Origin: Phlyctochytrium arcticum
Lineage: Eukaryota > Chytridiomycota > Chytridiomycetes > Chytridiales > Chytridiaceae
Reading direction: 5' to 3'
Length of the DNA: 64,000 nt
NCBI GenBank assembly: GCA_025602905.1
Contig: JAHLKI010000044.1
Location: forward strand, 1 to 64,000
A program made the position numbers and the translations under genes. Each line of letters starts with the position of its first letter. Position 1 is the stretch's first letter. The notes below the pieces were generated by a model. That model made no database searches, was not told where the DNA came from, and saw nothing but the letters and a program-made list of their open reading frames with translations. This document shows positions 45,044 to 64,000 of the stretch, piece by piece.

Positions 45044-45107
45044 CCCGGACCTGGTTCCTTTGGTTTCTTTCTCGCTTCCTGGGGTTTCTTCCTTTGGTTT
45101 CTTTTTT

Positions 45108-45122
45108 GTTATCGATAAACTC
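45108..45122 (+). promoter_or_regulatory. GTTATCGATAAACTC motif, copy 1
   Basis: 15-bp exact word recurring at 50,259-50,273 in the other large intergenic region of the virus-like element. It contains the palindrome TTATCGATAA. A regulatory or replication site is possible. Confidence 0.45.
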
Positions 45123-45451
45123 ACTCCCCCAAGCGCCCTCACAGCAGCTCACAATGTTTCTACTACTGGCACAAGACGCTATCTATTCTGTCCACATTGA
45201 AGACCACGGGCCGGGAAGGCACAAGACGCTACTGAGTTACTACAAAGTTACGTCTCGAAGTTACATCTCAAAAAGTATCCCTGTGCCCGCTAGAGGGGGT
45301 CCTTCTTAGATATAAACCGGTGCTGGCGGGCAGACGGATACCTTTACTCGTACGTTTTATCAGAGTCCTCGTTCGCATTCCGGCCTTCCTCGTCGTCTCT
45401 ACTTTGTAGCCTCTTTGCAATTGATACTGTCTTCGAGAGTCCAAGCTCCCA

Positions 45452-45461
45452 GTCACGTGAC
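45452..45461. promoter_or_regulatory. Palindromic GTCACGTGAC site 1
   Basis: Perfect E-box-type palindrome preceded by AAGCTCCCA. The same extended word recurs at 45,711-45,720, and the core recurs at 47,922-47,931 and (mirror) 63,913-63,922. A weaker form, GTCACGTGG, is at 50,692. It is probably a bHLH-type binding site or a viral promoter element. Confidence 0.5.
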
Positions 45462-45514
45462 CAGTCGGCACGAAAACGGGGGCAAAGACTTGCAACATCA
45501 CTTGTCAGAAGTCC

Positions 45515-45600
45515 ACAGATTCGACCCGGTCCACGTTAGCGTATACGTGTATGTGTGTATGTGCCAACAGTTGTTGCTACTGGCAAACGCGCACTTTGAA
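45515..45600 (+). repeat. Upstream repeat of viral-type promoter, copy 1
   Basis: Contains CAGATTCGACCCGGTCCACG and then GTGCCAACAGTTGTTGCTAC followed by TGGCAAACGCGCACTTT. Both blocks recur in the same order at 46,137-46,274, directly before the HSF-like ORF, with an insertion between them. Confidence 0.75.
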
Positions 45601-45710
45601 AAGGCACACTACACTGTCTATGCTGTACACATTACTGACCATGGGCAGGCAACCACAACCTTGCATCTTGTCCAAGTTCCTATCTTTGCAACTTCACGTC
45701 AAAGCTCCCA

Positions 45711-45720
45711 GTCACGTGAC
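45711..45720. promoter_or_regulatory. Palindromic GTCACGTGAC site 2
   Basis: Second copy with the same AAGCTCCCA flank as site 1, about 260 bp downstream, within the non-coding region before the HSF-like ORF. Confidence 0.5.
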
Positions 45721-45836
45721 CTGTTGGCAAACGCGCAATTGAAAGAGTCTAGCCTTTCCCAGCATCCATCTTCAGCATTCACTCAACAGTATCCTATTAG
45801 TAACTCATCTGTCTTCAAGACTCGAAGCTCCCGTCG

Positions 45837-46071
45837 TGTACATTGTACATTTGTACATTTGAAAAAACGTTTAGTCATTCAAAAAGCACCCAATATTTGA
45901 GTTCAGCTCTCAACTCGAAAATCATGTCCTTTCTTTTCTTGAATTCTACTTTTTGATGTACTTGATGTACAAATGTACAAAAATAACAGAATACAGCCAA
46001 AGACACTACATACAGTTGCAACCACCCCCAATTTCCGGTGTACATTTAAAATACATTTGCTGGGGTATGTA
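45837..46071 (+). repeat. Dispersed hairpin repeat with TGTACAT arms, copy 1
   Basis: About 235 bp similar (roughly 75-80 percent by eye) to 50,708-50,935. It contains GTACATTGTACATTTGTACA on one side and TTGATGTACAAATGTACA on the other, an inverted pair around an AATATTTGAGTTCAGCTCTC block conserved in both copies. It is followed by GTGTACATTTAAAATACATT in both. Confidence 0.85.
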
Positions 46072-46136
46072 CAGTACAACAATTGCAACTCAGAAGTCCA
46101 CAAATTGCAGGTCGATGCGACAGTTCCCATCAGACG

Positions 46137-46274
46137 ACAGATTCGACCCGCTCCGCGTTAGCGTGAACGTATGTGATCCTGCTGTAAGTCCCGACGTTAT
46201 GAAATCGAATGGTAAGCGGGTTATTACGTGTATGTGCCAACAGTTGTTGCTACTGGCAAACGCGCACTTTAAAA
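46137..46274 (+). repeat. Upstream repeat of viral-type promoter, copy 2
   Basis: Second copy of the 45,515-45,600 blocks; the GTGCCAACAGTTGTTGCTAC block ends about 20 bp before the HSF-like start codon at 46,295, consistent with a promoter or leader. Confidence 0.7.
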
Positions 46275-46294
46275 TACTGGAAACCAGATGCACA

Positions 46295-46645
46295 ATGGCC
46301 ACAGAACAACGCAAACACGTCCAGCTTCTAGGCAATGACGTCTTCAATGCGACGAAGGCTGTTAGCGACCCTGCGTCCCTTGCAAAGGTATGTGAATGGA
46401 TTCATAATGGCGACGGTCATCGTTATGCAGTGGTTTTTGTAAACAACCAGAACAAGGATCTGTTTCGACACTTGAGTTCCATTTGCTCCGGCTTTCAGTT
46501 TCCCAAGTTTAAGCAGCAGAGGCGCTCATTTTTGACGCCAAAAAGTGGCTATATCTGTATAGGTAGAGGTGAGATGTGTCTGTCTATCCGTGGGCATAGC
46601 TCTTATGAACGCTTGGAGATTGAAATTTCCGCGATTCCAAGCTAA
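46295..46645 (+). CDS. Protein resembling an HSF/Skn7-type DNA-binding domain
   Basis: 116-aa ORF, with the start chosen at MATEQRKHV just after the promoter-like repeat. Residues about 14-75 fit the heat-shock-factor winged-helix pattern: FNATKAVSD-like helix 1, CEWIHNGDGHRYAVVF aligning with the W.(T/H)NGD.F.V strand, an F..L...F helix, then FPKFKQQRRSF aligning with the F..FVRQLN.Y.F recognition helix. The match is clear in spacing but degenerate in residues. If real, it binds DNA. It lies about 900 bp from a stand-alone receiver gene. In fungal Skn7 these two domains form one protein. The family call is inference. Confidence 0.45.
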   Translation: MATEQRKHVQLLGNDVFNATKAVSDPASLAKVCEWIHNGDGHRYAVVFVNNQNKDLFRHLSSICSGFQFPKFKQQRRSFLTPKSGYICIGRGEMCLSIRGHSSYERLEIEISAIPS

Positions 46646-46784
46646 GCCACTTGGCAAGCGCTCGTCTCTAACACGTTCACAAAAGAAAGCAACATGGCAG
46701 AAACATCAAGGCATCAACATCAACATCAACTTGCGTATGAGTGTTTTAAGAATATCTTCTGTTCCTGGTAACATACAACGCAAT

Positions 46785-47246
46785 ATGCCACCACACAACG
46801 CCACAGACTCTAACTCTGACTCGGACTTTGACTCAGAAATCGGGCGGTGGTCTGACTCGGACTCAGATTCAGAAACCGGGTTAGACACCGGGTGCTTTGA
46901 CTCAGACGCCAGTGATGCAACTACTTTAGCCGACTTGGCAATTTCACGTACGTTGTTTCGACTACTACTTGAAGACCGGGATCTATTCAATGACTTCTGC
47001 CATTTCTACCTAAAGGAATGCTTAATGGTGGAATTATCAGAGGAACATAGTCCTGCTTGTCGGAGCAACATCAGACAAATTTTAGATCAGTTTGATCACG
47101 GTCGTTTCCCAATAAGCGAAGAGTTAGAGGACCTTGTCGAATACAGCCGACAGCAGCCGAACTGTTTGTATGGGGAGACGATAGATGCTCTCAACATGTT
47201 CGCCACCGCCACTTCGCAAGAACGTTCAGTCGGTATCGGTAGCTGA
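46785..47246 (+). CDS. Uncharacterised protein with Ser/Asp-rich N-terminus
   Basis: 153-aa product from the ATG at 46785 (an upstream in-frame ATG at 46738 is possible). The first 50 residues are a Ser-Asp repeat (DSDSDSETG type). The rest is predicted helical (RTLFRLLLEDRDLFNDFCHF and after). I do not recognise it. Its 3' end overlaps that of the next gene by about 20 bp on the opposite strand, a compact viral-style arrangement. Confidence 0.5.
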   Translation: MPPHNATDSNSDSDFDSEIGRWSDSDSDSETGLDTGCFDSDASDATTLADLAISRTLFRLLLEDRDLFNDFCHFYLKECLMVELSEEHSPACRSNIRQILDQFDHGRFPISEELEDLVEYSRQQPNCLYGETIDALNMFATATSQERSVGIGS

Positions 47247-47489
47247 GACGGTTATCCGTTTCTTCTTTGCTCGCTTCACTTTTAAGCTGCCCTTGTATTT
47301 TTCCTTCAGCAAATCAAGTTGCAGCTCGTTTTCCAACCAGACCAATATGGGCTTTGACACCACTGATTGGGTTTTCAAATCATTTACGAACTCCTGCTTC
47401 TTGTCATTTGAGGTCAGGTCTTTAAACATATTGATTACCCGAAGCTTTGTTGCTTCCTCTGGTTCACTGAACTCATACCTGTCACGCAT
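47226..47489 (-). CDS. Small uncharacterised basic-tailed protein
   Basis: 87 aa starting MRDRYEFSEPEEATKLRV, helical, ending in a Lys/Arg-rich tail (KVKRAKKKR). It is divergent from the receiver gene, with about 70 bp between start codons. No family recognised. The frame is open further upstream (to 47567), but that start would overlap the receiver gene. Confidence 0.45.
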   Translation of the reverse strand: MRDRYEFSEPEEATKLRVINMFKDLTSNDKKQEFVNDLKTQSVVSKPILVWLENELQLDLLKEKYKGSLKVKRAKKKRITVSATDTD

Positions 47490-47558
47490 ATTGATTCTTT
47501 CTAGTCTTATATGATAGTAAGAACTACATAAAAGAGTTGGTCCTTTCAACGCATCACT

Positions 47559-47930
47559 ATGTGTCAAACCGTGCTTATAGCTGACGACAATGAGCTAAGT
47601 CTTAAGATCGTTGCCCGCTTGTTCAAGTCCTTAGGTTGGTGCACTATTTTGACCCGATCTGCAAACCTGATCTTCCCCATATTGGTCGACAATTTCGCCG
47701 ATGTAACGCTACTACTGACTGACTATAGTCTAAGTGAGCGGATTACCGCGCTGACCATTATTGAAGGGGTCAGACAATGGGAGCGAGAATCGCAGTTGGA
47801 CAAGAGTCTGCCAATCATTGTCTTCTCAGCCCACCGTGATGTAGCAGCAGGCGCCGACATGTTCTTTGACAAACCATTGTCCTTGCAAAATGTGAACAAG
47901 ATCGTCGCGATTTACGGTTCAGTCACGTGA
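47559..47930 (+). CDS. Stand-alone CheY-like receiver (REC) domain protein
   Basis: 123-aa response-regulator receiver domain and nothing else. All key residues are present: acidic pair D9-D10 (LIADDNE), phospho-acceptor D55 (LLLTDYSLSE), switch residue S90 (IIVFSAH) and lysine K105 (FFDKPLS). Hydrophobic strand spacing is normal for the fold. It would accept a phosphoryl group from a histidine phosphotransfer protein. It sits among virus-like genes, tail to tail with the capsid gene. Its 3' end lies in the inverted repeat, so a second copy of at least its last 29 codons is present at the right edge of the window. Origin from a fungal hybrid kinase or Skn7 gene is likely. Confidence 0.85.
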   Translation: MCQTVLIADDNELSLKIVARLFKSLGWCTILTRSANLIFPILVDNFADVTLLLTDYSLSERITALTIIEGVRQWERESQLDKSLPIIVFSAHRDVAAGADMFFDKPLSLQNVNKIVAIYGSVT

Positions 47931-47945
47931 CCAGGCAAAGCCTGG
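47922..47945. promoter_or_regulatory. GTCACGTGAC site plus CCAGGC-AAA-GCCTGG hairpin at the receiver stop codon
   Basis: The palindrome 47,922-47,931 overlaps the TGA stop. It is followed at once by a perfect 6-bp-stem hairpin (47,931-47,945). Both are conserved in the right inverted-repeat arm. Confidence 0.55.
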
Positions 47946-48163
47946 AATCCGGGCACGGTTTGGCTTTGCAACATCACCGACATCACTTTACAACAGACAA
48001 GACAAGACAAGATAGTTTGGAGTTTGTATTGGGTATCATTAAATATATGTATTTACACGTCGTTTGCCCGTCCCGTGAGCCGCCTCATTTGTTTGGGGTC
48101 TGGTTGAATAAATGTGTCCCAGCCGCCCACCAGCTTAATTCTTCGCCCGTTGATAGAAAGCAT

Positions 48164-48183
48164 ATATGATTGTAGAATCATAT
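48164..48183. terminator. Hairpin between convergent receiver and capsid genes
   Basis: Perfect 8-bp stem ATATGATT/AATCATAT with GTAG loop, overlapping the capsid stop codon. It could mark mRNA 3' ends in both directions; Polinton-like and giant viruses often use such hairpins. It is conserved at 63,661-63,680. Confidence 0.55.
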
Positions 48184-49270
48184 GTTTGATCTCCACTGGT
48201 AGCTATGAAATGGTTGAGAAAGGCGTGAGCAGGAGGAGGTATCCAGATCGGCTAATGCTTCCCAGGAATTGTTAGCTGAAAGCTCCGTTAAAAGCAAAGT
48301 GGTCGGATCATTGGGACCGTGAGTAAAGCCCAAGCTACCACTTGGAATGTGGAGATTAGGACCGAGTGTTATGCGCCATTCCTTGAGGCCTTGGCTGTTG
48401 AAACTGAGGGCTTTATCCTTTGTCCTATCCCCGATCGTATCGTCGTCCACGAAGCAAGAATTGAACGCTTTTAGAGATCGTACACCCGACATGTGTAGCT
48501 TGAACTGGTTCTTGGTGCCGCCTGAGCAAGCATTTTCGACCTGCGTACACCTCATAAAATTGTAATTAATAACGACCCTCGCTGATCCTTTGAGTTACTG
48601 TTTGTACAAACGAAGGAGGAGGCGTTATGAAGGGTACTGTCATAATTATGTTGCTGAAACGGATCTCGTCAACATCTCCGGAGGTTAGGACCTTTTCCGG
48701 TTCGGCTAGGTACATTTCATAGGTAAGCGACTGCAGATCCAAGGCCCACGGGTGGAAACAGGAGTTGTTGACCGGATGATTGAACCCTATGTATGGATGA
48801 TGCACGTATCTTTTTGTCGGCGTATTTGCAAAAACGTCCGTTGTCCCATACCCGCCAGTGCTGCGTAGGATCTTTTTGAACCCAGCGGGCAGGTTCTTAT
48901 ACATAAGGGCGCAATAGAGAGGATAATTAGGAATGTCGCAAACGACCTCTCCACCCGCTCGGACGATCAGTCTCTCAATGCACCCGTCGAGCCCAAGATA
49001 GGTGTTAACTATTCCCGCACCATATACAGGAACACCGTTTTTTAACACTGTTACGTCCGCATTGAACAGTAAATTCGGTAGATAAAATGACTGCTTGTTA
49101 GAGTCCAGTTGAATCTTGATGGGGGTCAATTTCCCGCTTTTGGTGCTATAAGTACTTTGACCTACTGGCGAGATACTCAAAACACCCTCTCCTCTGGGAT
49201 CCGAATAACTCCGAGCATACTGATTGCTCGAAACGAGCCAGTTTGCAGGAACTTGGACTTCTGAGGCCAT
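48178..49270 (-). pseudogene. Double-jelly-roll major capsid protein, frameshifted
   Basis: Two overlapping minus-strand frames form one protein of about 360 aa. 48566-49270 gives the first 234 residues; the frame continuing to 48178 gives the rest. A one-base shift near 48,575-48,585 separates them. The N-terminal half shows capsid features: KLTPIKIQLDSNKQSFYLPN, then IERLIVRAGGEVVCDIPNYP (a strand-turn typical of Polinton/PLV capsids), and VDEIRFSNIIMTVPFI at the end of the first jelly roll. The C-terminal half has FKLHMSGVRSLKAF and LKEWRITLGPNLHIPSGSL, matching the second jelly roll. Either the copy is dead or the base is missing in the assembly. The gene's 3' end lies in the inverted-repeat arm. 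Confidence 0.72.
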
Positions 49271-49302
49271 TATGCTTTACAGTATGCTTAGAAAAAAATT
49301 AC

Positions 49303-49884
49303 TTAGTATCCTCCTTCGCCAAAGATATCATCAAATTTAACTCTGTGAGGTCCAGGCCGTCGCTGTTGCGCCTGCTGGTATGCGGCAGCGGTATAGTTGT
49401 CATTATAGTGGTCACTATCCGACTCACTTGCATCACTGTCGTGACTTTCATCCTCATACAATGGCCTCGACGGTGGTGGAGTCGCCTCGCGTTTAGGCAC
49501 TCGCGCCTTTGGCTTTGCTTTAGTTGCTTTAGTTGCTTTAGTTGCTTTTGGGTTTTCTGATGCAAGTTGCGCAACTTGCTTCTGTTCACGGGCCTTTCGC
49601 TTTTCTTCACGGTGCTTGGCCAGCAACGCTTTAGCCTCCTCTAACCGTAGCTTTTCTTCTTCGAGGGCAAGTTTCTCTTGCATTTTTCTTAAGTTTTCGG
49701 CTCGAGTGGCCGTCGCTTTCTTTTGAGCTTCTATTTGTTTCTTAGTCCGACGCGGCTTGGATTCTGCTGCAGCATCAACCTTTCCCCCATCGTTTTTTGC
49801 TACTTTGACCTCCGGTTCCGGAACGGGTTCTGCTGGCTCCGGGTCCACTTCTGTCGGTACCGGGCTGGTTCTGTCGGTGTCCAT
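49303..49884 (-). CDS. Charged coiled-coil protein upstream of capsid
   Basis: 193 aa. It has a Pro/Glu N-terminus, a long Ala/Glu/Lys/Arg coiled coil (about 45-110, e.g. LRKMQEKLALEEEKLRLEEA), a KATKATKATKA repeat, an acidic Ser/Asp patch, and a C-terminal VKFDDIFGEGGY. It lies 32 bp upstream of the capsid start, on the same strand. Proteins of this kind often precede capsid genes in Polinton-like viruses and may be scaffold or virion components. No named family. Confidence 0.65.
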   Translation of the reverse strand: MDTDRTSPVPTEVDPEPAEPVPEPEVKVAKNDGGKVDAAAESKPRRTKKQIEAQKKATATRAENLRKMQEKLALEEEKLRLEEAKALLAKHREEKRKAREQKQVAQLASENPKATKATKATKAKPKARVPKREATPPPSRPLYEDESHDSDASESDSDHYNDNYTAAAYQQAQQRRPGPHRVKFDDIFGEGGY

Positions 49885-50258
49885 AACTTTTCGGGTTTTC
49901 CTACATACTGATGATGCAAAATAAAATGTTGAACGCTGCTGCGCAAATGCGTTTTCCGCTTGTTGCCTATCCGTAACTCAACACGTCTCCGTCGGATAAC
50001 CTGCAGAAAATACATAAGAGTCCCATTTGGGGACTGTAAATCATCACTTTTTTGAGGCAAGGAAGAGTCTCATCTCAACTTTGCAAGCGCAACCTTTAAG
50101 AAACCTGTCACCCTTCCAGACCCGTAATGTATCCTTTTTGGGACAAGCAGCTAGCCACAAAAAGCGCGTTTCATAACCATTTTGGAACTAAATGAGCTCC
50201 AACCGCGGGTCCCCGTATCAATAAGCCAACGCGTTGCATTGCCTACGGGCGGCCAGTT

Positions 50259-50273
50259 GTTATCGATAAACTC
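50259..50273 (+). promoter_or_regulatory. GTTATCGATAAACTC motif, copy 2
   Basis: Exact 15-bp repeat of 45,108-45,122, here on the left of the second hairpin repeat. Confidence 0.45.
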
Positions 50274-50353
50274 GTTGGCAAACTTTTGCAAAGGCTTCGG
50301 CTGCGAACAGTTGACGTGTCCAACACGACAGCAACGCAACTACACAGCCACAC

Positions 50354-50581
50354 TCAAGACACTTTTGAGACTTTGCGGTTGATGCACGGAGGGGTCTCAT
50401 CTCGTTTCCTTTGCGGTGTTCGTCGATTTGCTATGCTGTGAGCCATTGCAAAAGCTTGGTTACGGCTCGTCACTTTAACCCTTACCCCGCCTTTGCCACT
50501 ATACATAAGCGTTCCATTCTCGAAATCTTGTAATACACTATTGAATATATCCTCCCACTCGCTACTACGCCCTTGCTCCAT
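50354..50581 (-). CDS. Small basic ORF of the virus-like element
   Basis: 75 aa starting MEQGRSSEWEDIFNSVLQD, with a basic C-terminal half (RRTPQRKRDE). The peptide NGTLMY followed by a basic strand recurs in the neighbouring frame at 49800-50060. This suggests two related small proteins or a duplicated leader. Weakly supported. Confidence 0.35.
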   Translation of the reverse strand: MEQGRSSEWEDIFNSVLQDFENGTLMYSGKGGVRVKVTSRNQAFAMAHSIANRRTPQRKRDETPPCINRKVSKVS

Positions 50582-50707
50582 TCAAAAGGGTCTATGTGTT
50601 CTCTTCTATGTAACAACGGTAGGAAAAAGTTTGGCATCATGTTGTGGCCAACCGTATCCTTTGTTGCGGTCAGTCAGAGTCTCAATCACAAGTCACGTGG
50701 CTCGGAC

Positions 50708-50935
50708 CTGTACATTGTACATTTGTACATTTGAAAAATGGTCGGGGCATCCCAAAGTCACCAAATATTTGAGTTCAGCTCTCAACTTGAAAAGTGGTTC
50801 TTTCTTCTTTCGTAATTCTATTTTTTGATGTACAAATGTACAAATGTACAAGATAACAGAATAGAGACAAAAAACACCACATAAACCAACGAGCAGGCGC
50901 AATATTCAGTGTACATTTAAAATACATTTGGTGGA
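50708..50935 (+). repeat. Dispersed hairpin repeat with TGTACAT arms, copy 2
   Basis: Same order as copy 1: CACGTG-type site upstream, TGTACATTGTACATTTGTAC, AATATTTGAGTTCAGCTCTC, a TTTTTTGATGTACAAATGTA arm, then GTGTACATTTAAAATACATT. It lies between the 3' side of the TVpol-helicase gene and the small ORF, ending about 10 bp before that gene's stop. Confidence 0.85.
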
Positions 50936-50946
50936 CCAATGTACTG

Positions 50947-53343
50947 CTATGTAGGACGAGCAACAGTAAGTTTGATCTTTGTTCCTCCATTCCGGTTCTG
51001 AGTTGCATTCTCAATGGCTAGCTTCCGGCGGATGACCTTACCGAAAGCCTTCTTTCCCAACAGCCCTTTGTGTCGAACGCACCCTGAATGACTGCTACCA
51101 TAGAACTCAACATAGCGTTCAAACAGTTCGACCATTGTCATTTGATACTTTTCTCCAGGTTGGAAGTATGCAGCATCACTTTTGGTCTTTGTCTCCTCAT
51201 CCCATTTTCCTTTCTCGTGGACAATGCCCCCGTCAAGCATTTCCTCTACGAACAGATCTAACGGGTTCATTGCCATAACTCGCATATCCTCCTTCTCCTC
51301 TGTATGTGGAATGTTGCGAACGTTGAATTTGCTGAGATCCAAGCTCATCAGATAGGTGTAGAAGTGATCTGCTGTTTCTTGCGTCAGGTTTTGACATAAA
51401 GGAGCAAAGTACTCCTGCGCATTGCGGTGCTTGTCGGAAACACGCTTGACATAGTAGCGGCGGCAAGTGTCTTCAATCTTGACAGCATCGTCATTGTTAC
51501 TTAGGAAACATAGGTTCATGAAGTCTTCAATCATAAGAGGATCGCATCCCTTTTTCTCGCACTTCTGCCAGGCCTGAGTTATCTTCGATTTCAGAATGTT
51601 GTTCGTCTTGTGTGCACCAGCAAAGACAACTTCGTCTCCCAATACAAAGATCTTGGCAGATTGAAGTGAAGTGAATCTACCGGTGAGATCGTCCAGGTCA
51701 TTAAGATAGAGATAGTGATCCTTGCCTATGATGTACTGACCGAACCATTCAAAAAGGATATTTTTGCCGGTACCTTGTGATCCGTGGAGGACAATGGCCG
51801 TGCGATTCTTGTCCTCCGGGTTTTGAACCATAGATGCCAACCACCCTTCCAAGTAGCGCCAGTGCTCCTCAACTCCTCCGTTTATAACTTCTCGCAAATG
51901 GTAAAAGATTGGAGCCAGAATTGTCTCGTCGTAAGAGTCCAGCCTCGTTGCCTTGAATCCGCGGAAAAGGTTCAGTTCATAGCCATTGCGGTCACCGACG
52001 CACCGTGGGTTCATCACTATCTTCTTGAAGGTGAGCAGTTTGGGTTCTTGGTACCAGAAGCGGAACATCTCTAAATGGGTTGTCTTTGTCTTCTCCGATT
52101 TTCCCGTTTTTTGATAGGTAGATGACAGGTGCGACAGACAGGTTGAAGTTGTTGCTTTGTCACGCCAGATCCAAGGGTCGCTCCGCTTCTCGCGATAGCA
52201 GAACCAAGCTGTATCCTCCTCGGTCACTTTTGCAAAGAAGTTGTTGAGATAACGAAGCAGGGACTTAGGATCCTGGCCATTGTTGAAGAGTTTCTTGGCT
52301 CGCGAGATCGAGATAACCTCATCCTCAGGAATAGGAAGAACTACAATTCCCTCCTCCTCATCATCATCGTCTTCGTCGGGTCCGTCCTCAAATGTCCGCT
52401 TAGTCAGCAATGTAGCAGCCGGAACGACTTGAAGATGCCAGTGGGTGAGAAATTCTGAAGGGATGAAGAAGTCCTTTTGCAATAAGACAACCTCAAAGTG
52501 GGTACGTTCCTGAACATAGCTTTCGCAGTCCTTCAACAAAGCCGGTATGTCAGCCAATTGGGGAGACTTGAGCACCAACGCTCCGTCAAAGATGGGAACA
52601 TGAGCCTCGAAGTTCTGAGACTTTAAGTTGTCCATAATAGAAGTGAGGCATTGTTTCTCGAACGTTTGATAGATCAAAGAGAGGAAACAGCCTTCCTTAT
52701 TGCCTCGTATGTCGCGTTGCCGAAGTAACTGGACGTGCTCCCACACTGCTGACCAGTAATTGTGCTGTCCAGAAGTCAACAGTGGAACAACTTCTCCGTA
52801 AAAAAAAGTGTGGATCTTTCGTATGAAGGTGTTGCGCGGCTTGGAGTTGGAAGTAAAGATCATACGAATCACGTCGGTCTTGGCCAAAGATTGTTGAGTA
52901 AGAACCTGCTTGCGATTCTCAATAAGCTCGATCAGCTCCGGGCATAGTGCCGCCACGTCCAGGTTCAATTGCTCGGCCAAGGATTTCAGGAGACGGAACA
53001 TTGCATTCTCCATATCAATGTCCAGGTAGTACTCGGAAGCAAGGAAGGCTCGGATCTCCTTTGGGAACATTTGCAAACCAATGCCGCCGCGAGCCCAGAG
53101 TCGTCCGTACTCGAGGATGGAGTACTTGGAATAAGTGTATTCGATTCTAAATTGATTGGGACCAACGTTGCATTTGGTGTAGGCCATTAGCTTCTTGCGC
53201 CAGGTGGAGTCCAGGTTGGGACATTTGATCAGCTGTTGCAGGTGGGCCTCGTTGGCATATTCAATGTAGGCCACGACTGTTGGCATACCATTGTTATCAA
53301 TGCGGAACAGGCTGGAGATGGGTTCGGCGGAAAGTTGCAACAT
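50947..53343 (-). CDS. TVpol-SF3 helicase fusion (viral replication protein)
   Basis: 798-aa intronless protein. The N-terminal part (about 60-300) matches the transpoviron/virophage-type family A-like polymerase. It has GRLWARGGIGLQMFPKEIR, then motif A YYLDIDMENA (D108, D110), a KTDVIRMIF motif, and motif C PIFDGALV (D253). An acidic linker (320-332) follows. The C-terminal half is an SF3 (D5-like) helicase: Walker A GSQGTGKN at 521-528, Walker B KIFVLGDEV at 564-572, sensor LSNNDDAVKIED, and RRYYVKRVSD. The combination is a hallmark of Polinton-like viruses and virophages and would drive genome replication. All catalytic motifs look intact, so this copy may be functional. The ATG at 53343 is the first in frame. 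Confidence 0.88.
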   Translation of the reverse strand: MLQLSAEPISSLFRIDNNGMPTVVAYIEYANEAHLQQLIKCPNLDSTWRKKLMAYTKCNVGPNQFRIEYTYSKYSILEYGRLWARGGIGLQMFPKEIRAFLASEYYLDIDMENAMFRLLKSLAEQLNLDVAALCPELIELIENRKQVLTQQSLAKTDVIRMIFTSNSKPRNTFIRKIHTFFYGEVVPLLTSGQHNYWSAVWEHVQLLRQRDIRGNKEGCFLSLIYQTFEKQCLTSIMDNLKSQNFEAHVPIFDGALVLKSPQLADIPALLKDCESYVQERTHFEVVLLQKDFFIPSEFLTHWHLQVVPAATLLTKRTFEDGPDEDDDDEEEGIVVLPIPEDEVISISRAKKLFNNGQDPKSLLRYLNNFFAKVTEEDTAWFCYREKRSDPWIWRDKATTSTCLSHLSSTYQKTGKSEKTKTTHLEMFRFWYQEPKLLTFKKIVMNPRCVGDRNGYELNLFRGFKATRLDSYDETILAPIFYHLREVINGGVEEHWRYLEGWLASMVQNPEDKNRTAIVLHGSQGTGKNILFEWFGQYIIGKDHYLYLNDLDDLTGRFTSLQSAKIFVLGDEVVFAGAHKTNNILKSKITQAWQKCEKKGCDPLMIEDFMNLCFLSNNDDAVKIEDTCRRYYVKRVSDKHRNAQEYFAPLCQNLTQETADHFYTYLMSLDLSKFNVRNIPHTEEKEDMRVMAMNPLDLFVEEMLDGGIVHEKGKWDEETKTKSDAAYFQPGEKYQMTMVELFERYVEFYGSSHSGCVRHKGLLGKKAFGKVIRRKLAIENATQNRNGGTKIKLTVARPT

Positions 53344-53407
53344 TTTGGATAGGAGTAGTTACTTGTTTAAGTACCAATTTTTTTCGGCAGTTGAAACGAA
53401 GCAAATC

Positions 53408-53674: not shown

Positions 53675-54566
53675 ATACTTTATACGATCTCTTCTCCTTA
53701 TATTGCTTTAAACATGTTAGTTGTCAGAAGATAGCAATATGCCCAATATGCCCACATTCTTCTTGAGGCTTTCGTTTAATGCCTCCTGGCCTGAACAGGC
53801 TTTGGCCTTCAAATGAATTCAATCGCGGCTTGAATCGCCGCGTTCACCGCGCGACATCGCAACTGTGCCGCTTGGGGGGAGGGTCCAGGATAGCGTTTGC
53901 TACGGTATGAGACTTGGAAGGATGCCGGGCATACAGAACTTTTGATTTACAACTTTCGAAATTCTGCATCGTAGACGCGTGCCTGAGTTTGGATCTCTCG
54001 ATTGTAGGAGTTTTGTGCTGTCAAACAAGAACTGGAGCCCGTGGGAATAACGCGTCGGGATTCGAAGGGCAACTCAAGAAGATCGAACTATTTGAGTAGC
54101 AAATCTATACCGGGACTGGAGTCGGTGGTCAGGTGCAGCAGCCACCACGTATCATGTCATGCTGAAAACTCTGATGGTATGTACAGGAATAAATTTCAGG
54201 TAGTCTGATAGTCAGGGTAAGCCGCAATAGACCCTAAGGTAAATTCAATTTGAAAGCTTACAGCGAATTGACTAGCTTGATGTTAAGATTTGTTGGCTCT
54301 CAGCGCAAGAGAGCAAAAGGATTGTTGTTGCATCAGGCCAAAGTCAAGGAGGGCCAAGCAATCACTCGGGGTTATGACCGAGTTGGCGCCGCCTAGGGTG
54401 TGTGCGGTGTCAAGAAGGGAGGCGCTTGGGGGGAGGATTAAAATATACGGAAGTTTGGCGGTAACTCATGAAGCTGATGTATCGAGAGACATAGAGAAGT
54501 GTGTGTTAGTTCATAACAATGTGATATATTTATCTGCTGCCGGGTTTGAACTTACGCAAGAGGGCT

Positions 54567-56367
54567 TCAGGACATATGATGTCTGATGCTTTCTTCGAAA
54601 GGAACTGGATCTTCTGTCAGCTGATTGTGCTCAAGTCGAATGTTTTTATTGATTTGCTGTTGCTCATTAAGTGTTCTAAACATCTCGGCAACCAGCTCGG
54701 TTACCCCCATCAGAGAGCCAAATTCGTCCCAGCTGGTAGGGATACACGCGCTTCGTACTTCTTCGACCTTGCATGTCCTCCCATCCGCTCCAAGAGTCAT
54801 TTTAGAAAGGGTCAGCCGGTTCTGAATGAACTGAACGATCATCAACGCTTTCCTTCGGGCAGTCTTCATCGAAGCGCCCTTGTATTTGCTGAGGAAAAGT
54901 TTCAAAGCATAACACGCGCTCTCAAGGAGCTTTATCGAATCTCCCTCCGTATGCTCGGATTTTTCCTTCAGTAGACCGCCACTTGATTCTATGAATACGA
55001 TTTCGTCTCTGGTGCTCGGATCTTTCCCCAGTCCGTCCGCAAAACGCGGCGCATCCCCTGTGCGGCTTGGGTCTTCTTTCTTTGAATTAATCGCATACTC
55101 GCACCAATGCCAACTAATCAATCCGGTCTCTCTAAGCGGGGCCAGTAGAGGCACCACTAGATCCGCGGTAGGGGTTCGCTCATGGTCGTCTTGGAAGAAC
55201 CTGGCGTTGGGTGAGACGTAACCATGCATTGAGTGAAGGCCGTGGCGTAAAATTCTCCAAAGCCGCCCTTCCTCGTCTGGTAACGTCTCAGGGTCTAAGG
55301 CTAGAGCCCAGGTGTCCCAGGAAGCCCAGCTCCCAGTGTCACCCAGCACTCTTTTCAAATGCTGGAGTAAGGTGGGGTATTCCCCAATTATTATTGCTCG
55401 TGGGTATGCCGCTGTAGCAAATGTCATGTTCCGTGACATGAGTTTTTGGGAGGCTGCGGAGTATTTTGGTTTGTTGGGGGTTGGCATGGAAGTGATGTCG
55501 GGAATGTTGAATGTTTTCTTTCCGATTTGAACTTCCACATCTTCCACCTATCATATATGTTACTTTGAGGATCTCAAACTAAGGTTCACTAGATCATATT
55601 CACCTCTATATCATCGGATCGCTTTCGTTTCACCACAACAACGCTGGCGTGTTCGCCTACCACGACGTTGTTTTCACCGACACATAATTGCTGTCCCTCG
55701 CCAGGTTGCATGGAGTGCGTTTCTCCAGCACCCGTGCTTCCCTGCTGAGCAATGATGATGTTACTGAAAAGATTTTGGAGAAAGGTGGTGTAGCTTATAT
55801 TCACCTCCGCGCTCAAGCTGTCCGAAATCTGCAGATTGGCGCCCTGTCCGACAACAATGTTGTCGTTTCCGATTACAATTTGCGGAGAATTTATTGTGAT
55901 AGCAGGCTGGACAGCAGGTGCCTCTTTTTCCATCGCCTCGAACGCGTCCTTCAGACGGGAATATAACTTTCCTTTTGCCTCACCAAGAAGGTGTTTGCGG
56001 TGACGGGCAGAGGCGGCCGCGCGATAGGCTTGAATAACTGCATTGTGAGTGCTCTGGTTATAGGTAGTGTATTCTTGGGTCAGATTTCCCAAATCCTGCA
56101 GAACAAAATTTAAAAAGGTAGCTTTTGGGTTTTTGGCGATGTATGTATCGGCTGTAGAGAAAGGTCTTTGATTGATGAATGAAAACTTCCCGAGTGCATT
56201 GACATACCTCGCTTTTTAAGCGGTTCAGGGGTATTTTTAATCATTGTTGAGAAATGGAATTGAATGATCTTGGATGATCTCGCGGAGGATCTCGCGCGTC
56301 CATCAACTGGCACTACGCGGTTGCCATAGTGGTCACTCATTTTGGCCAGTGTACCCAGCGTCGGCAC
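54567..56367 (-). CDS. Three-exon uncharacterised gene, copy 1
   Basis: Exons 56208-56367, 55604-56151 and 54567-55547; the two 56-nt introns have GT..AG ends and keep frame. About 562 aa from the first Met (later Met codons are possible). The middle has two beta-rich blocks with the same rhythm (PQIVIGNDNIVVGQGANLQI and QLCVGENNVVVGEHASVVVV). The C-terminal 250 residues include DEIVFIESSGG and a long helical segment (LLESACYALKLFLSKYKGAS). This is the shape of PD-(D/E)XK-like domains expanded in some fungi, but the usual E-x-K lysine is not seen. Function unknown. The introns suggest a host or host-adapted gene rather than a core viral one. Confidence 0.65.
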
Positions 56368-57554
56368 GGACGCGTCGAGATCGCGGACATCTGCTCCAAC
56401 CTACCAACCTATGACCTCTGCAGGCCCACACCGAATGCAGACTGACGCACGCGTGAATTTGGTGAGTGCCTTTCTCAAAGCACTGTCGAAGCGAGTGCGG
56501 CACAGCTAGTCCACGTTGTGCTGCGGGCGAGTGTTACTGCGGAGAAGAGACGGCATCCCCAGCTCTACTTTTCACTCTCCGGCCCTCTCTTCCGCTCCAA
56601 ACCTATCTGCTATTCTGCTGAGGGCTGCTCGTGCGGCGAAGTATATGGATGCCTCCGCTTGTGGGCATATACTTTTAGCTCACCCCGTAGCTTGTCACCT
56701 TGAGGGAAAAACTCAGGAGATTTTGCTTTTAGTTTGTTTGGATAAAGCTTATGAGAGACCACTCGATGGACTATACCCTACATATTGGCTCGTTGATTGT
56801 GATAAGCACCAGTACTTGATTGCTACTCATTTGCATGCTTCTTTCCTCCGCGTCTCTTTTTCCTAGTCATCAAAAAACAAACTTGTTTGTGGCAGCACAG
56901 CTCTTCCAAATCGGTCAAGTTGCCCCGGGGGAGCTGAATCAACGCGGGGCTAATGGGCCAAAGATGCATCCCAAGCTGCATTGCTGCGATTGCAGAACTC
57001 AGAGGGGCTGCCGCGTTTGCTTGTCAAGTGTCTTGTTACGCTATCAATCCTGTTACGGTGAGCCTTTGGAGGATTATGGGCTCGATGCAAACCCGATGTC
57101 GTCCTGTATACAAACCTATGTCCATGTAGATTGTTCCTGTAAATAAGGAATGCATTCGATACACACATAAGAGTACGGGGACAACGAGCACATTTTCCTT
57201 ATGCTGTGGCAAATCCCACCACAAGGGGGAGGTCTGTGCAGCCCGGGGTTTACATGTTTCGTTTCGCTTCCTTCGGTTGCAAGGGCATGTCGGATGACGG
57301 TACTGGAGCCGCGGCAATCGTACGCTCCTGGTTCGGTCGGCAATTTGAACTGATCAAGCTTTTATCAACCGGCTGCTCGGCTGCGTTTTTGGCTGCGGTA
57401 AAATCATCAAAATTCCCTCTCTCAGCAGCGGAGCGAATGGTCGGGAGAATGAAGACTGATAGCTGTGCAACTATCGTTGAAAAAGATGTTTACAACGCTG
57501 ATTACTACAATTCTGACGACGGATGGTGAATGAGTATCAATTAATGTTTTTCCA

Positions 57555-57860
57555 TTAATCATCCAACATTTCGCACACATCCTTTGAATTCACGATCAGC
57601 TCGCGGACGTCATCTATCAACGATTCTGGCATTGCGAAAATATCCGTCAATAATCCTATCACATTCTTCTGTGATTGGGCTTGCTCCAAAAAGTGTTGGA
57701 AGCTGTATTTGATAGTTGATGAGTTGGTGTATAATGATGGAAGCCCTAAAGTGCAAATTGACGGTACCGACATAGTAGACGTAAAAAGCTATAACATTGT
57801 TGGTTATTCTATCAAAACGAATACTGGAATGCTAAAACATAGATGACTTACGTTTGCCAT
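57555..57860 (-). CDS. Tiny two-exon gene, copy 1
   Basis: Exon 1 is nine bases (ATGGCAAAC) at 57852-57860, followed by a GTAAGT donor. A 63-nt intron ends ..TTATAG, and exon 2 is 57555-57788, giving 80 aa. The product is mostly helical (FQHFLEQAQSQKNVIGLLTD). The plus strand is also open here and reads plausibly (VQIDGTDIVDVKSYNIVGYS), so strand choice is uncertain. No family recognised. Confidence 0.35.
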
Positions 57861-58720
57861 CTTTTTCGACCGGGGTAACCCGCCACTTTGTCATCGTACT
57901 TGGACCCACATTCTTCTTGAGGCTTTCGTTTAATGCCTCCTGGCCTGAACAGGCTTTGGCCTTCAAATGAATTCAATCGCGGCTTGAATCGCCGCGTTCA
58001 CCGCGCGACATCGCAACTGTGCCGCTTGGGGGGAGGGTCCAGGATAGCGTTTGCTACGGTATGAGACTTGGAAGGATGCCGGGCATACAGAACTTTTGAT
58101 TTACAACTTTCGAAATTCTGCATCGTAGACGCGTGCCTGAGTTTGGATCTCTCGATTGTAGGAGTTTTGTGCTGTCAAACAAGAACTGGAGCCCGTGGGA
58201 ATAACGCGTCGGGATTCGAAGGGCAACTCAAGAAGATCGAACTATTTGAGTAGCAAATCTATACCGGGACTGGAGTCGGTGGTCAGGTGCAGCAGCCACC
58301 ACGTATCATGTCATGCTGAAAACTCTGATGGTATGTACAGGAATAAATTTCAGGTAGTCTGATAGTCAGGGTAAGCCGCAATAGACCCTAAGGTAAATTC
58401 AATTTGAAAGCTTACAGCGAATTGACTAGCTTGATGTTAAGATTTGTTGGCTCTCAGCGCAAGAGAGCAAAAGGATTGTTGTTGCATCGGGCCAAAGTCA
58501 AGGAGGGCCAAGCAATCACTCGGGGTTATGACCGAGTTGGCGCCGCCTAGGGTGTGTGCGGTGTCAAGAAGGGAGGCGCTTGGGGGGAGGATTAAAATAT
58601 ACGGAAGTTTGGCGGTAACTCATGAAGCTGATGTATCGAGAGACATAGAGAAGTGTGTGTTAGTTCATAACAATGTGATATATTTATCTGCTGCCGGGTT
58701 TGAACTTACGCAAGAGGGCT

Positions 58721-60521
58721 TCAGGACATATGATGTCTGATGCTTTCTTCGAAAGGAACTGGATCTTCTGTCAGCTGATTGTGCTCAAGTCGAATGTTTT
58801 TATTGATTTGCTGTTGCTCATTAAGTGTTCTAAACATCTCGGCAACCAGCTCGGTTACCCCCATCAGAGAGCCAAATTCGTCCCAGCTGGTAGGGATACA
58901 CGCGCTTCGTACTTCTTCGACCTTGCATGTCCTCCCATCCGCTCCAAGAGTCATTTTAGAAAGGGTCAGCCGGTTCTGAATGAACTGAACGATCATCAAC
59001 GCTTTCCTTCGGGCAGTCTTCATCGAAGCGCCCTTGTATTTGCTGAGGAAAAGTTTCAAAGCATAACACGCGCTCTCAAGGAGCTTTATCGAATCTCCCT
59101 CCGTATGCTCGGATTTTTCCTTCAGTAGACCGCCACTTGATTCTATGAATACGATTTCGTCTCTGGTGCTCGGATCTTTCCCCAGTCCGTCCGCAAAACG
59201 CGGCGCATCCCCTGTGCGGCTTGGGTCTTCTTTCTTTGAATTAATCGCATACTCGCACCAATGCCAACTAATCAATCCGGTCTCTCTAAGCGGGGCCAGT
59301 AGAGGCACCACTAGATCCGCGGTAGGGGTTCGCTCATGGTCGTCTTGGAAGAACCTGGCGTTGGGTGAGACGTAACCATGCATTGAGTGAAGGCCGTGGC
59401 GTAAAATTCTCCAAAGCCGCCCTTCCTCGTCTGGTAACGTCTCAGGGTCTAAGGCTAGAGCCCAGGTGTCCCAGGAAGCCCAGCTCCCAGTGTCACCCAG
59501 CACTCTTTTCAAATGCTGGAGTAAGGTGGGGTATTCCCCAATTATTATTGCTCGTGGGTATGCCGCTGTAGCAAATGTCATGTTCCGTGACATGAGTTTT
59601 TGGGAGGCTGCGGAGTATTTTGGTTTGTTGGGGGTTGGCATGGAAGTGATGTCGGGAATGTTGAATGTTTTCTTTCCGATTTGAACTTCCACATCTTCCA
59701 CCTATCATATATGTTACTTTGAGGATCTCAAACTAAGGTTCACTAGATCATATTCACCTCTATATCATCGGATCGCTTTCGTTTCACCACAACAACGCTG
59801 GCGTGTTCGCCTACCACGACGTTGTTTTCACCGACACATAATTGCTGTCCCTCGCCAGGTTGCATGGAGTGCGTTTCTCCAGCACCCGTGCTTCCCTGCT
59901 GAGCAATGATGATGTTACTGAAAAGATTTTGGAGAAAGGTGGTGTAGCTTATATTCACCTCCGCGCTCAAGCTGTCCGAAATCTGCAGATTGGCGCCCTG
60001 TCCGACAACAATGTTGTCGTTTCCGATTACAATTTGCGGAGAATTTATTGTGATAGCAGGCTGGACAGCAGGTGCCTCTTTTTCCATCGCCTCGAACGCG
60101 TCCTTCAGACGGGAATATAACTTTCCTTTTGCCTCACCAAGAAGGTGTTTGCGGTGACGGGCAGAGGCGGCCGCGCGATAGGCTTGAATAACTGCATTGT
60201 GAGTGCTCTGGTTATAGGTAGTGTATTCTTGGGTCAGATTTCCCAAATCCTGCAGAACAAAATTTAAAAAGGTAGCTTTTGGGTTTTTGGCGATGTATGT
60301 ATCGGCTGTAGAGAAAGGTCTTTGATTGATGAATGAAAACTTCCCGAGTGCATTGACATACCTCGCTTTTTAAGCGGTTCAGGGGTATTTTTAATCATTG
60401 TTGAGAAATGGAATTGAATGATCTTGGATGATCTCGCGGAGGATCTCGCGCGTCCATCAACTGGCACTACGCGGTTGCCATAGTGGTCACTCATTTTGGC
60501 CAGTGTACCCAGCGTCGGCAC
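58721..60521 (-). CDS. Three-exon uncharacterised gene, copy 2
   Basis: Same structure as the gene at 54567-56367, shifted by 4,154 bp: exons 60362-60521, 59758-60305 and 58721-59701. No coding difference was seen. The promoter region is also duplicated. Confidence 0.65.
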
Positions 60522-61708
60522 GGACGCGTCGAGATCGCGGACATCTGCTCCAACCTACCAACCTATGACCTCTGCAGGCCCACACCGAATGCAGACTGAC
60601 GCACGCGTGAATTTGGTGAGTGCCTTTCTCAAAGCACTGTCGAAGCGAGTGCGGCACAGCTAGTCCACGTTGTGCTGCGGGCGAGTGTTACTGCGGAGAA
60701 GAGACGGCATCCCCAGCTCTACTTTTCACTCTCCGGCCCTCTCTTCCGCTCCAAACCTATCTGCTATTCTGCTGAGGGCTGCTCGTGCGGCGAAGTATAT
60801 GGATGCCTCCGCTTGTGGGCATATACTTTTAGCTCACCCCGTAGCTTGTCACCTTGAGGGAAAAACTCAGGAGATTTTGCTTTTAGTTTGTTTGGATAAA
60901 GCTTATGAGAGACCACTCGATGGACTATACCCTACATATTGGCTCGTTGATTGTGATAAGCACCAGTACTTGATTGCTACTCATTTGCATGCTTCTTTCC
61001 TCCGCGTCTCTTTTTCCTAGTCATCAAAAAACAAACTTGTTTGTGGCAGCACAGCTCTTCCAAATCGGTCAAGTTGCCCCGGGGGAGCTGAATCAACGCG
61101 GGGCTAATGGGCCAAAGATGCATCCCAAGCTGCATTGCTGCGATTGCAGAACTCAGAGGGGCTGCCGCGTTTGCTTGTCAAGTGTCTTGTTACGCTATCA
61201 ATCCTGTTACGGTGAGCCTTTGGAGGATTATGGGCTCGATGCAAACCCGATGTCGTCCTGTATACAAACCTATGTCCATGTAGATTGTTCCTGTAAATAA
61301 GGAATGCATTCGATACACACATAAGAGTACGGGGACAACGAGCACATTTTCCTTATGCTGTGGCAAATCCCACCACAAGGGGGAGGTCTGTGCAGCCCGG
61401 GGTTTACATGTTTCGTTTCGCTTCCTTCGGTTGCAAGGGCATGTCGGATGACGGTACTGGAGCCGCGGCAATCGTACGCTCCTGGTTCGGTCGGCAATTT
61501 GAACTGATCAAGCTTTTATCAACCGGCTGCTCGGCTGCGTTTTTGGCTGCGGTAAAATCATCAAAATTCCCTCTCTCAGCAGCGGAGCGAATGGTCGGGA
61601 GAATGAAGACTGATAGCTGTGCAACTATCGTTGAAAAAGATGTTTACAACGCTGATTACTACAATTCTGACGACGGATGGTGAATGAGTATCAATTAATG
61701 TTTTTCCA

Positions 61709-62014
61709 TTAATCATCCAACATTTCGCACACATCCTTTGAATTCACGATCAGCTCGCGGACGTCATCTATCAACGATTCTGGCATTGCGAAAATATCCG
61801 TCAATAATCCTATCACATTCTTCTGTGATTGGGCTTGCTCCAAAAAGTGTTGGAAGCTGTATTTGATAGTTGATGAGTTGGTGTATAATGATGGAAGCCC
61901 TAAAGTGCAAATTGACGGTACCGACATAGTAGACGTAAAAAGCTATAACATTGTTGGTTATTCTATCAAAACGAATACTGGAATGCTAAAACATAGATGA
62001 CTTACGTTTGCCAT
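61709..62014 (-). CDS. Tiny two-exon gene, copy 2
   Basis: Exons 62006-62014 and 61709-61942, identical to copy 1. Only this copy retains the probable original upstream sequence beyond the duplication, with the same strand uncertainty. Confidence 0.35.
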
Positions 62015-62058
62015 CTTTTTCGACCGGGGTAACCCGCCACTTTGTCATCGTACTTGGA

Positions 62059-63504
62059 CAAATATCCACAATAATTCTGATTTGAAAAGCAATGAATGGA
62101 CTTGATGCCAGCAAAAAGCAGAAGGGAGTAGTACCTTCTAGAGAAACTAACCCTTTTCTTGTGGGGATGTTTTGCTGCTTCTGTCATCATGGTCATGACT
62201 TCGTCTTGGGTGGCAGCTTCATATGGCGAGATCTGTCAAATAGAGCAATTCATTGTAGAGTTATCAGTTGGCTGCATGGCATACATTCGCCTCTTTCTTT
62301 GGCTTTCCTTTTGAGTCCGGGCACTGCCGCTGCAAATCTAATCAGATTCCTATTACAATAACGAGTTCATCCATAATTACCTGTGCATGCACCTTCACCC
62401 TGTCCCACCCAAAGCTCCACCTCCATTGCCAGTACAGTCAGACTCGATACAGTGACCCCCTCGGGTCCGTGTGGATGGCCCAAAAGGTGACTGTGAGGTG
62501 CTCATTTGGAGGAGCGGACTGAGGTACAAAAAGTTTGGGACCAGGCGAAGAGGGTGACTGAATCGAGGATTGACTGTAAAAGGGGGTAACTGTATCGAGG
62601 CCTGACTGTAGGTCATGCCGTCCACTTCCGCAAATCGATCGTTTTTGGAGAACAAAATCGGACCCATACTCTTTCCGAAGTCTAAGAACAGGACGTAGCT
62701 CTCATGGTCCGACAAAAGAGCTCCGTGCAACCCGGTGTTTACATGTGTTGTTTCAATTCCTTCGGTTGCAAGGGCGTGTCGGATGACGGAACTGGAGCCG
62801 CGGCAATCGTACGCTCCTGGTTCGGTCGGCAATTTGAACTGAAACTGCCCTTTGGGCTTTCCCCTTTGACGTGCTTGAAAAACGAATACAGCTGGATAAT
62901 ACTCAAAAAGGTAAGACCTCCCACAGTTTCCAGTACTGGTGAGTGGCGACGACCAGATAGTCGCTGCTGGTTTATGTAGGATCAGTGGAAGTTCAGTGAC
63001 GTGCCAAGCAAAAACTTACTTGCAAGATGCTGGAGCTACTTTTGCTAGACCACTGTTTTTCCGAAGCTGTACTGAACGCGTTTGGCCTGCCCCGTCTTTC
63101 AGACCCGCCCAAAAATGTTCTGACTGATGCGAGAAAACTCTTGTATTCATACGTTATGCCAAACTCTGGCCTTTTATACATGTAGACACTGAACTAAGAC
63201 ACTGATCTCTAAGACTATGATAGGACGACCTCGACGACTTCGCGTACCGCGTCGCTCGGCGTGGCGCAGCTGGGACAACCATTCACTCAGATTCCTGTCA
63301 CTGACTCATAATTTAGCCCTGAAAAACCCCATAAAGCAGAAAGCTCTTCAAGGCAGACCTTCTGTGACACTTTGACCTACCACAGGTACCACCAACAGCA
63401 GTGGGAAAGTGAGGACAAGTCATGGGCTTGACAACAACTGATGTGGCCCATATACATGTGCGCCCTTCACCAATCAGATTCGGAGCTTTTGGGACAGAGA
63501 ACTA
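62059..63504. other. Non-duplicated spacer before the right inverted-repeat arm
   Basis: About 1.4 kb with no convincing gene. It contains a diverged copy of a segment of the tandem unit (see 62,727-62,842). Open frames on both strands here have no recognisable domains. Confidence 0.45.
62727..62842 (+). repeat. Diverged third copy of a 116-bp segment
   Basis: Matches 57,237-57,352 and 61,391-61,506 at about 90 percent by eye. In the plus frame several differences are silent and others change residues, within the conserved peptide SDDGTGAAAIVRSWFGRQFE. It may be an exon of an unknown gene family or a short dispersed repeat. Confidence 0.75.
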
Positions 63505-63666
63505 GGTAGCTTAGGCTTCACTCACGGTCCCAATGATCCCACCACACTGCTTTTAACGGAGCTTTCAGCTAACAATTCCTGGGAAGCATTAGCCGATCTG
63601 GATACCTCCTCCTGCTCACGCCTTTCTCAACCATTTCATAGCTACCAGTGGAGATCAAACATATGA
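63505..63666 (+). pseudogene. 3' fragment of a second capsid gene
   Basis: Encodes the last roughly 53 residues of the capsid C-terminal jelly roll (GFTHGPNDPTTLLLTELSAN region) in opposite orientation. The upstream part is absent: sequence before 63,505 is unrelated. Confidence 0.85.
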
Positions 63667-63913
63667 TTCTACAATCATATATGCTTTCTATCAACGGGCG
63701 AAGAATTAAGCTGGTGGGCGGCTGGGACACATTTATTCAACCAGACCCCAAACAAATGAGGCGGCTCACGGGACGGGCAAACGACGTGTAAATACATATA
63801 TTTAATGATACCCAATACAAACTCCAAACTATCTTGTCTTGTCTTGTCTGTTGTAAAGTGATGTCGGTGATGTTGCAAAGCCAAACCGTGCCCGGATTCC
63901 AGGCTTTGCCTGG

Positions 63914-64000
63914 TCACGTGACTGAACCGTAAATCGCGACGATCTTGTTCACATTTTGCAAGGACAATGGTTTGTCAAAGAACATGTCGGCGCCTGCTGC
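63914..64000 (-). CDS. C-terminal part of a second receiver-domain gene (partial)
   Basis: 29 codons identical to the end of the receiver gene at 47559-47930, including the FFDKPLS lysine motif, cut by the window edge. Whether the full gene continues outside cannot be seen. Confidence 0.85.
   Translation of the reverse strand, partial: AAGADMFFDKPLSLQNVNKIVAIYGSVT

Follow-up and report, generated by a model that had tools for sequence, protein, structure and literature searches.

Polinton-like viruses (PLVs) are already known from chytrid fungi, namely Spizellomyces and Powellomyces. According to the available text of Bellas and Sommaruga 2021 (PMC7805220), an integrated PLV occurs in Spizellomyces punctatus and PLV genes occur in Allomyces macrogynus. 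Powellomyces chytrid fungus MELD viruses 1-6 are entered in the NCBI taxonomy as unclassified dsDNA viruses, and Fungi were left out of a large protist survey, as stated in its available text (PMC10120064). Here, the first 64,000 nt of contig C44 of the chytrid Phlyctochytrium arcticum (C44:1-64000, the whole stretch analysed, hereafter the window) were found to carry a defective endogenous PLV with a broken capsid gene, termed the C44 element, whose palindromic ends may represent opened hairpin telomeres. All own-genome searches used the 31.48-Mb assembly of 91 contigs. A first-pass annotation of the window had expected a fungal copy to widen the host range of these viruses, an expectation that lapses with the fungal hosts already reported in the accessible literature (Spizellomyces, Allomyces, Powellomyces).

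The C44 element spans C44:44542-67207 (22,666 bp), with its right end 3.2 kb past the window. The features of the element and its insertion site in the window are as follows.

43335..44541, plus strand: host repeat open reading frame (ORF), the part before the insertion point, split by the element
44537..44541, no strand: left target-site duplication GAGGA; right copy at contig 67208-67212, both flush outside the palindromes
44542..44588, no strand: terminal perfect palindrome, 47 nt, with 23-nt arms and a 1-nt centre; partner at contig 67161-67207
44542..48339, no strand: left arm of the long terminal inverted repeat (TIR); partner at contig 63505-67207
46605..47246, plus strand: unassigned ORF within the repeat arm, without a hit to Pfam or PHROG at E 0.1
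47559..47930, plus strand: response-regulator receiver-like ORF in the repeat arm, Pfam PF00072 at E 3.5e-6 and 27.6 bits, below the curated cut-off of 30.2
48178..48555, minus strand: major capsid remnant, C-terminal piece, its final 162 nt inside the repeat arm; NCBI gene model P0001 has the same residues
48566..49270, minus strand: major capsid remnant, N-terminal piece, double-jelly-roll family
49303..49884, minus strand: coiled-coil capsid neighbour, a lysine/glutamate-rich ORF judged by eye
50947..53343, minus strand: TVpol-SF3 helicase fusion, 798 aa, open frame
53751..57904, no strand: tandem duplication unit 1, 4154 bp, with minus-strand ORFs of 306 and 114 aa
57905..62059, no strand: tandem duplication unit 2, 99.98% identical to unit 1
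62718..62842, no strand: partial third copy of part of the tandem unit, 125 nt, 92%
63505..64000, no strand: start of the right inverted-repeat arm, which continues to contig 67207

The host flanks, joined with a single GAGGA, matched C4:1062904-1063282 without interruption at 83% (query 17-399 of 400; read and aligned), the paralogue having AAGGA where C44 has GAGGA. A second uninterrupted match was found at C4:1018089-1018482 (71%, query 1-400; search match only). The uninterrupted paralogue and the GAGGA on both sides therefore indicate one clean insertion of 22,666 bp. In addition, the left part of the window contains fungal-type genes encoding an importin, a hybrid histidine kinase, a UBR finger and an RFX factor. 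The element thus sits in a fungal chromosome, as the first-pass annotation had proposed. The objection that the contig could be bacterial, contaminant or free-virus DNA was ruled out by these genes and by the insertion with its empty site.

Gene content and architecture placed the element among the PLVs. Its only long ORF is the TVpol-S3H replicase, in which a family-A polymerase fold and a DUF5906 helicase bear out the fusion read at first pass; the protein-primed PolB of Maverick-Polintons sensu stricto is absent from the element, the genome as a whole not having been searched for PolB. TIRs of 3.7-3.8 kb, a length of 22.67 kb (within 14-40 kb) and the GAGGA duplication are likewise those of a PLV. 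The double-jelly-roll assignment of the capsid held (own-genome matches, 50% identity to Spizellomyces P0004, family fold), and its coiled-coil neighbour has counterparts beside the capsid gene at loci L052, L053, L054 and L030. A single intact capsid gene at 48178-49270 was ruled out, however, the region being split into two ORFs. The capsid fold was less similar to Sputnik and mavirus than to PBCV-1, and a sequence search of the PDB with the capsid piece returned three rows at E 0.36-1. No A32/FtsK-type packaging ATPase had been seen in the window and none appeared past position 64,000, with 0 of 49 own-genome matches falling on C44. The same held for an rve integrase among the 98 matches listed (93 of 218 candidates scored; tyrosine recombinases were not searched for). 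A minor capsid (penton) protein was not recognised anywhere in the window; on C4, an ORF of 241 aa next to the capsid gene is penton-like by position only, without a Pfam match. The response-regulator-like ORF is present in both repeat arms.

The palindrome at each end of the element belongs to a pattern found throughout the genome. A scan of the window and 56 loci (arms of at least 14, loop of at most 4, at most one mismatch) yielded nine palindromes, namely the element's end in the window and eight in seven loci. TGNNAYRGTGC lay near the first bases of eight of the nine; the L019 palindrome was without it. A genome-wide pattern that fixed 11 outer positions per side and left the inner positions free (shared outer motif TGTNAYRGTGC) matched 129 places, and its reversed control matched none. 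Among the 108 of these that were read, 1805 of 1850 inner pairs were complementary, and 100 palindromes were perfect save for four central pairs; longer palindromes (for example, 87 nt) and variant motifs fall outside the count. They formed 28 families with arms of 21-43 nt that differed in sequence between families. The outer bases are thus common while the inner arms differ and yet stay paired, a sign that structure is constrained. When run against IMG/VR, the pattern matched 10 contigs, in which 63 of 180 inner pairs were complementary (best 15 of 21) and none formed a full palindrome. One palindrome family lies within about 1.8 kb of contig ends and is possibly subtelomeric (C7:801-1742, C23:433192-434133, C10:907402, C18:578479, C40:203480), with a spacing of 942 bp in two cases.

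Neighbouring palindromes of the same family within 45 kb gave 21 candidate pairs, to which C24, whose right palindrome has one mismatch, was added for a total of 22. In 14 of the 22, the palindromes are directly flanked by an exact duplication of 5 bp; flush duplications of 4, 6 or 7 bp occurred in none. The controls gave 2 of 2640 (offset) and 5 of 462 (swapped partners), some of the latter being explained by a flank common to two pairs and by GAGAG common to two. C1:1308257 and C3:1361088 share a flank, so the 14 represent 13 independent events. Palindromes thus stand at both ends in 14 pairs with duplications, the C44 element included, as in hairpin-replicating viruses. Ten of these pairs enclose a capsid or TVpol match, some via a nested element, and four enclose neither (C32, 8.6 kb; C10, 22.8 kb; C7, 4.6 kb; C25, 1.7 kb). 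Because the duplications fall outside the palindromes, the palindrome as a host target site was ruled out. The repeat arms comprise the palindrome only (C1:1308257, C13:606105), 3.8 kb (C44), ~6 kb (C1:1324571-1330556) or ~12.2 kb (C24). Just inside the palindrome, ungapped matches were 8 of 40 for C13:606105 and 12 of 40 for C1; nothing is repeated past the palindrome in some duplicated pairs, indicating that the palindrome itself is the terminus. The right end of the element starting at C1:1324339 was absent at the expected mirror position. Nested insertions, one palindrome type inside another, occur at C13:606105-628141 and C6:97321-133912, and in the latter the inner palindromes are arranged symmetrically relative to the outer palindromes.

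We know of no explained means by which PLVs without a protein-primed polymerase copy the tips of their linear genomes. Such a solution is required by a linear genome that has no protein primer, and a 3' end that is self-complementary can itself act as one. The palindromic ends would be hairpin telomeres in opened form: the 3' terminus may fold back and be extended by TVpol-SF3, or by PrimPol-D5 in sibling elements of the same genome, which would allow the linear genome to be replicated right to its tips with no need for the protein primer of the Polintons. Such copying would keep both palindrome arms identical, and copying of one end onto the other could generate the long, variable inverted repeats (3.8 kb in C44; 12.2 kb per arm in C24). 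The defective C44 element may have been mobilised in trans by siblings recognising the outer motif TGTNAYRGTGC. On balance, we favour the view that the C44 element is a defective endogenous PLV of the Spizellomyces punctatus-like chytrid group whose palindromic ends are opened hairpin telomeres with hairpin-copied tips. The broader proposal, that chytrid PLVs form a hairpin-telomere lineage with fold-back priming by TVpol-SF3 or PrimPol and insertion of the opened ends by a retroviral-type integrase, is advanced tentatively and falls somewhat short of an even chance.

Several observations weigh against hairpin copying. No virion, episome or replication intermediate was seen, and the palindromic ends described are all from the P. 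arcticum genome. Eight of the 22 pairs have no duplication (C4:900741, C6:103483, C28, C8, C7:801, C23, C15, C22). Hairpin copying permits a palindrome centre in opposite orientation at the two ends, as seen by eye in C24 and C1, whereas the orientation is the same at both ends in five duplicated pairs with asymmetric centres (C44, C6, C10, C25, C7), and the centre bases of C13 differ between its ends. Furthermore, the two halves of the C24 element are joined by a 97-nt unpaired spacer, whereas simple hairpin copying predicts a terminal palindrome there. Of the 47 capsid matches, only 9 fall inside one of the 21 pairs, 12 more are within 25 kb of a read palindrome and 26 have none nearby; for the 42 TVpol matches the corresponding counts are 6, 26 and 10 (matches of C24 belong to the 25-kb class). 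Palindromic ends are thus established for fewer than half of the copies. Palindromes accompany both replicase types and hence do not depend on a particular polymerase, and the PrimPol domain of the siblings could prime without hairpins.

The main rival keeps the PLV and reads the palindromes as only a symmetric integrase-binding site, with replication proceeding otherwise, for example, by primase initiation or through circles. The C44 element reads TG...CA at its ends, which is typical of retroviral-type integrases, and these ends, the common outer motif and the 5-bp duplications all fit an integrase site. This reading is also favoured by siblings that encode rve-chromo integrases and PrimPol, and by small elements with such ends and duplications (1.7 kb in C25, 4.6 kb in C7, 8.6 kb in C32). 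However, a binding site should conserve its sequence, whereas the 21-43-nt arms differ among the 28 families and remain paired, and palindromes can be as long as the 87-nt example. The shared outer TG...CA bases thus fit integrase recognition, and the paired, variable inner arms fit a need to fold. We regard a role as an integrase site alone as possible but rather unlikely.

Hairpin-copied PLVs were also weighed against a large DNA transposon of the palindromic-end type that captured viral genes. Precise insertion with duplication and the small members agree with a transposon, as does the C44 copy itself, in which the capsid gene is broken and neither an ATPase nor an integrase was matched. 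The capsid genes and complete-looking siblings elsewhere in the genome make it improbable. Own-genome searches returned 47 capsid matches at E 0.01 (window's copy included), 42 TVpol-SF3 matches at E 0.001, 49 ATPase matches and 98 listed integrase matches, many of the weakest being chromodomain only; several matches are pieces of one gene. Of the capsid matches, 26 have frames of 415 aa or longer with no stop. The complete-looking siblings on C4 and C17 group a capsid, a coiled coil, an A32-type ATPase (Pox_A32 1e-7 for C4), an rve-chromo integrase and, on visual inspection, ORFs of penton-like and fibre-like appearance. The C4 replicase contains Prim-Pol (6.8e-20) and D5_N (4.4e-11) domains, so two replicase types coexist in the genome. 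A SET-domain protein also occurs in complete-looking elements (L054:8330-8941 on C17, by Pfam; L076:1-489 on C4 reads alike).

The capsid proteins, moreover, group with those of other chytrids. A tree of 30 rows, 27 of them different, was built from 20 of 29 own-genome loci examined, the window's piece and nine other proteins; it omitted nine own-genome loci with frames outside 395-460 aa and P0014 (long branch), and some other proteins matched by the C4 capsid were never included. The window's piece paired with the C6 copy (100/98) within a group holding Spizellomyces and Powellomyces, and 15 other own-genome copies made up a clade of their own (100/100). Because its branch is long, the position of the window's piece is uncertain. 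Capsid searches gave no match in phages, nor did the capsid protein and capsid alignment against IMG/VR. For TVpol, the best 20 of 207 tblastn matches in phages covered residues 413-726 only, and the alignment matched two IMG/VR contigs over residues 405-696 only.

The long inverted repeats agree with copying between ends. The arms of the C44 element lie 15.2 kb apart; over the 3,703 nt that can be aligned, they differ by 9 mismatches (0.24%) and by two indels, one of 59 and one of 36 nt. The left arm stops within the capsid remnant, and since the right arm holds the identical partial piece, one end is a copy of the other. C24:303568-328046, in the parts read, is a 24.5-kb inverted dimer with arms 99.9-100% identical, TVpol pieces in each arm and different host flanks. 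Palindromic chimeras are a recognised long-read artefact, and the C24 arms are 100% identical over the 4,745 nt adjoining the centre; nevertheless, an assembly origin of the repeats and dimer is very improbable and, for the window's repeat, a fold-back was ruled out, given the differences between its distant arms, the distinct host DNA flanking C44 and C24 with one duplication each, which a fold-back would not yield, the empty site for C44 elsewhere, and the right end and flank repeated on C85. That second copy (C85:1-24270) comprises the element's right half, shares its right flank and differs in the tandem unit; it may be an allele or a duplication.

Among described systems, the Spizellomyces punctatus PLV group is closest, as an integrated dsDNA virus of a chytrid host, and differs in that the C44 copy is defective. 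The capsid of the C4 copy is 68% identical to S. punctatus protein P0004 (matched by species) and 64% identical to the hexon of Powellomyces MELD virus 5, the MELD viruses being compared here through this protein. Inverted repeats, and duplications of 5-7 bp in some elements, are given for the Spizellomyces PLVs in the available main text of PMC7805220, from which the terms palindrom and hairpin are absent. Cryptophyte PLVs (PMC12220804) share both replicase types (TVpol-S3H and AEP-S3H), TIRs and many copies, and differ in their protist hosts; neither term occurs in the main text. Siblings of the C44 element share with Maverick-Polintons an rve integrase, an A32 ATPase and a double-jelly-roll capsid, and the published Maverick-Polinton duplications of 5-6 bp, in the text available, cover the 5 bp seen here. 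In contrast to the protein-primed PolB of Maverick-Polintons, the replicase here is TVpol or PrimPol with a helicase. As defined in the available text of PMC9952930, virophages (class Maveriviricetes) are recognised via reference hidden Markov models for the major capsid protein, ATPase and cysteine protease.

Parvoviruses, poxviruses and telomere phages have terminal palindromes or hairpins. These viruses share with the chytrid elements such termini and long or variable TIRs, and differ in having unrelated genes or far larger genomes; hairpin use by the chytrid elements would be a further likeness. Hairpins on the TIRs of Tyrannovirus, a giant virus (PMC12747079), and palindromic repeats near the ends of virophage DSLV3 (PMC10301787) are mentioned in the available text of those reports. 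We found no earlier description of palindromic or hairpin PLV ends among the papers listed in searches of open-licence PubMed Central main text (supplements lie outside these searches), and a term search gave none in PMC7805220, PMC10120064, PMC8547959, PMC12220804 or PMC12721341. Among open-licence PubMed Central papers naming P. arcticum, no title concerned viruses of fungi.

Perfect terminal palindromes that stay paired across 28 families despite sequence change offer a concrete, testable answer to the copying of tips. A hairpin-telomere lineage, if true, would mean that viruses of this type have a third route for replicating their ends, in addition to protein priming and circles. The palindrome is also a very specific search signature, which pinpoints exact ends where capsid genes have decayed, yielded 129 candidate termini in one 31-Mb fungal genome, and reveals small elements missed by gene searches.

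Beyond the fungal-type genes, the window contains transposons, including a Helitron. The ORFs concerned and a polymerase fragment are as follows.

23691-25550, plus strand: Helitron-type helicase ORF (PIF1 7.6e-28, Helitron_like_N 2.4e-7)
30140-31135, plus strand: type-B DNA polymerase fragment of the organellar/viral kind (DNA_pol_B_2 4.1e-6), 13 kb outside the PLV element
33693-37987, minus strand: cluster of DNA_pol_A_exo1 3'-5' exonuclease and DUF6729 ORFs, perhaps a transposon

The type-B polymerase fragment could be a remnant of another virus or of a linear plasmid.

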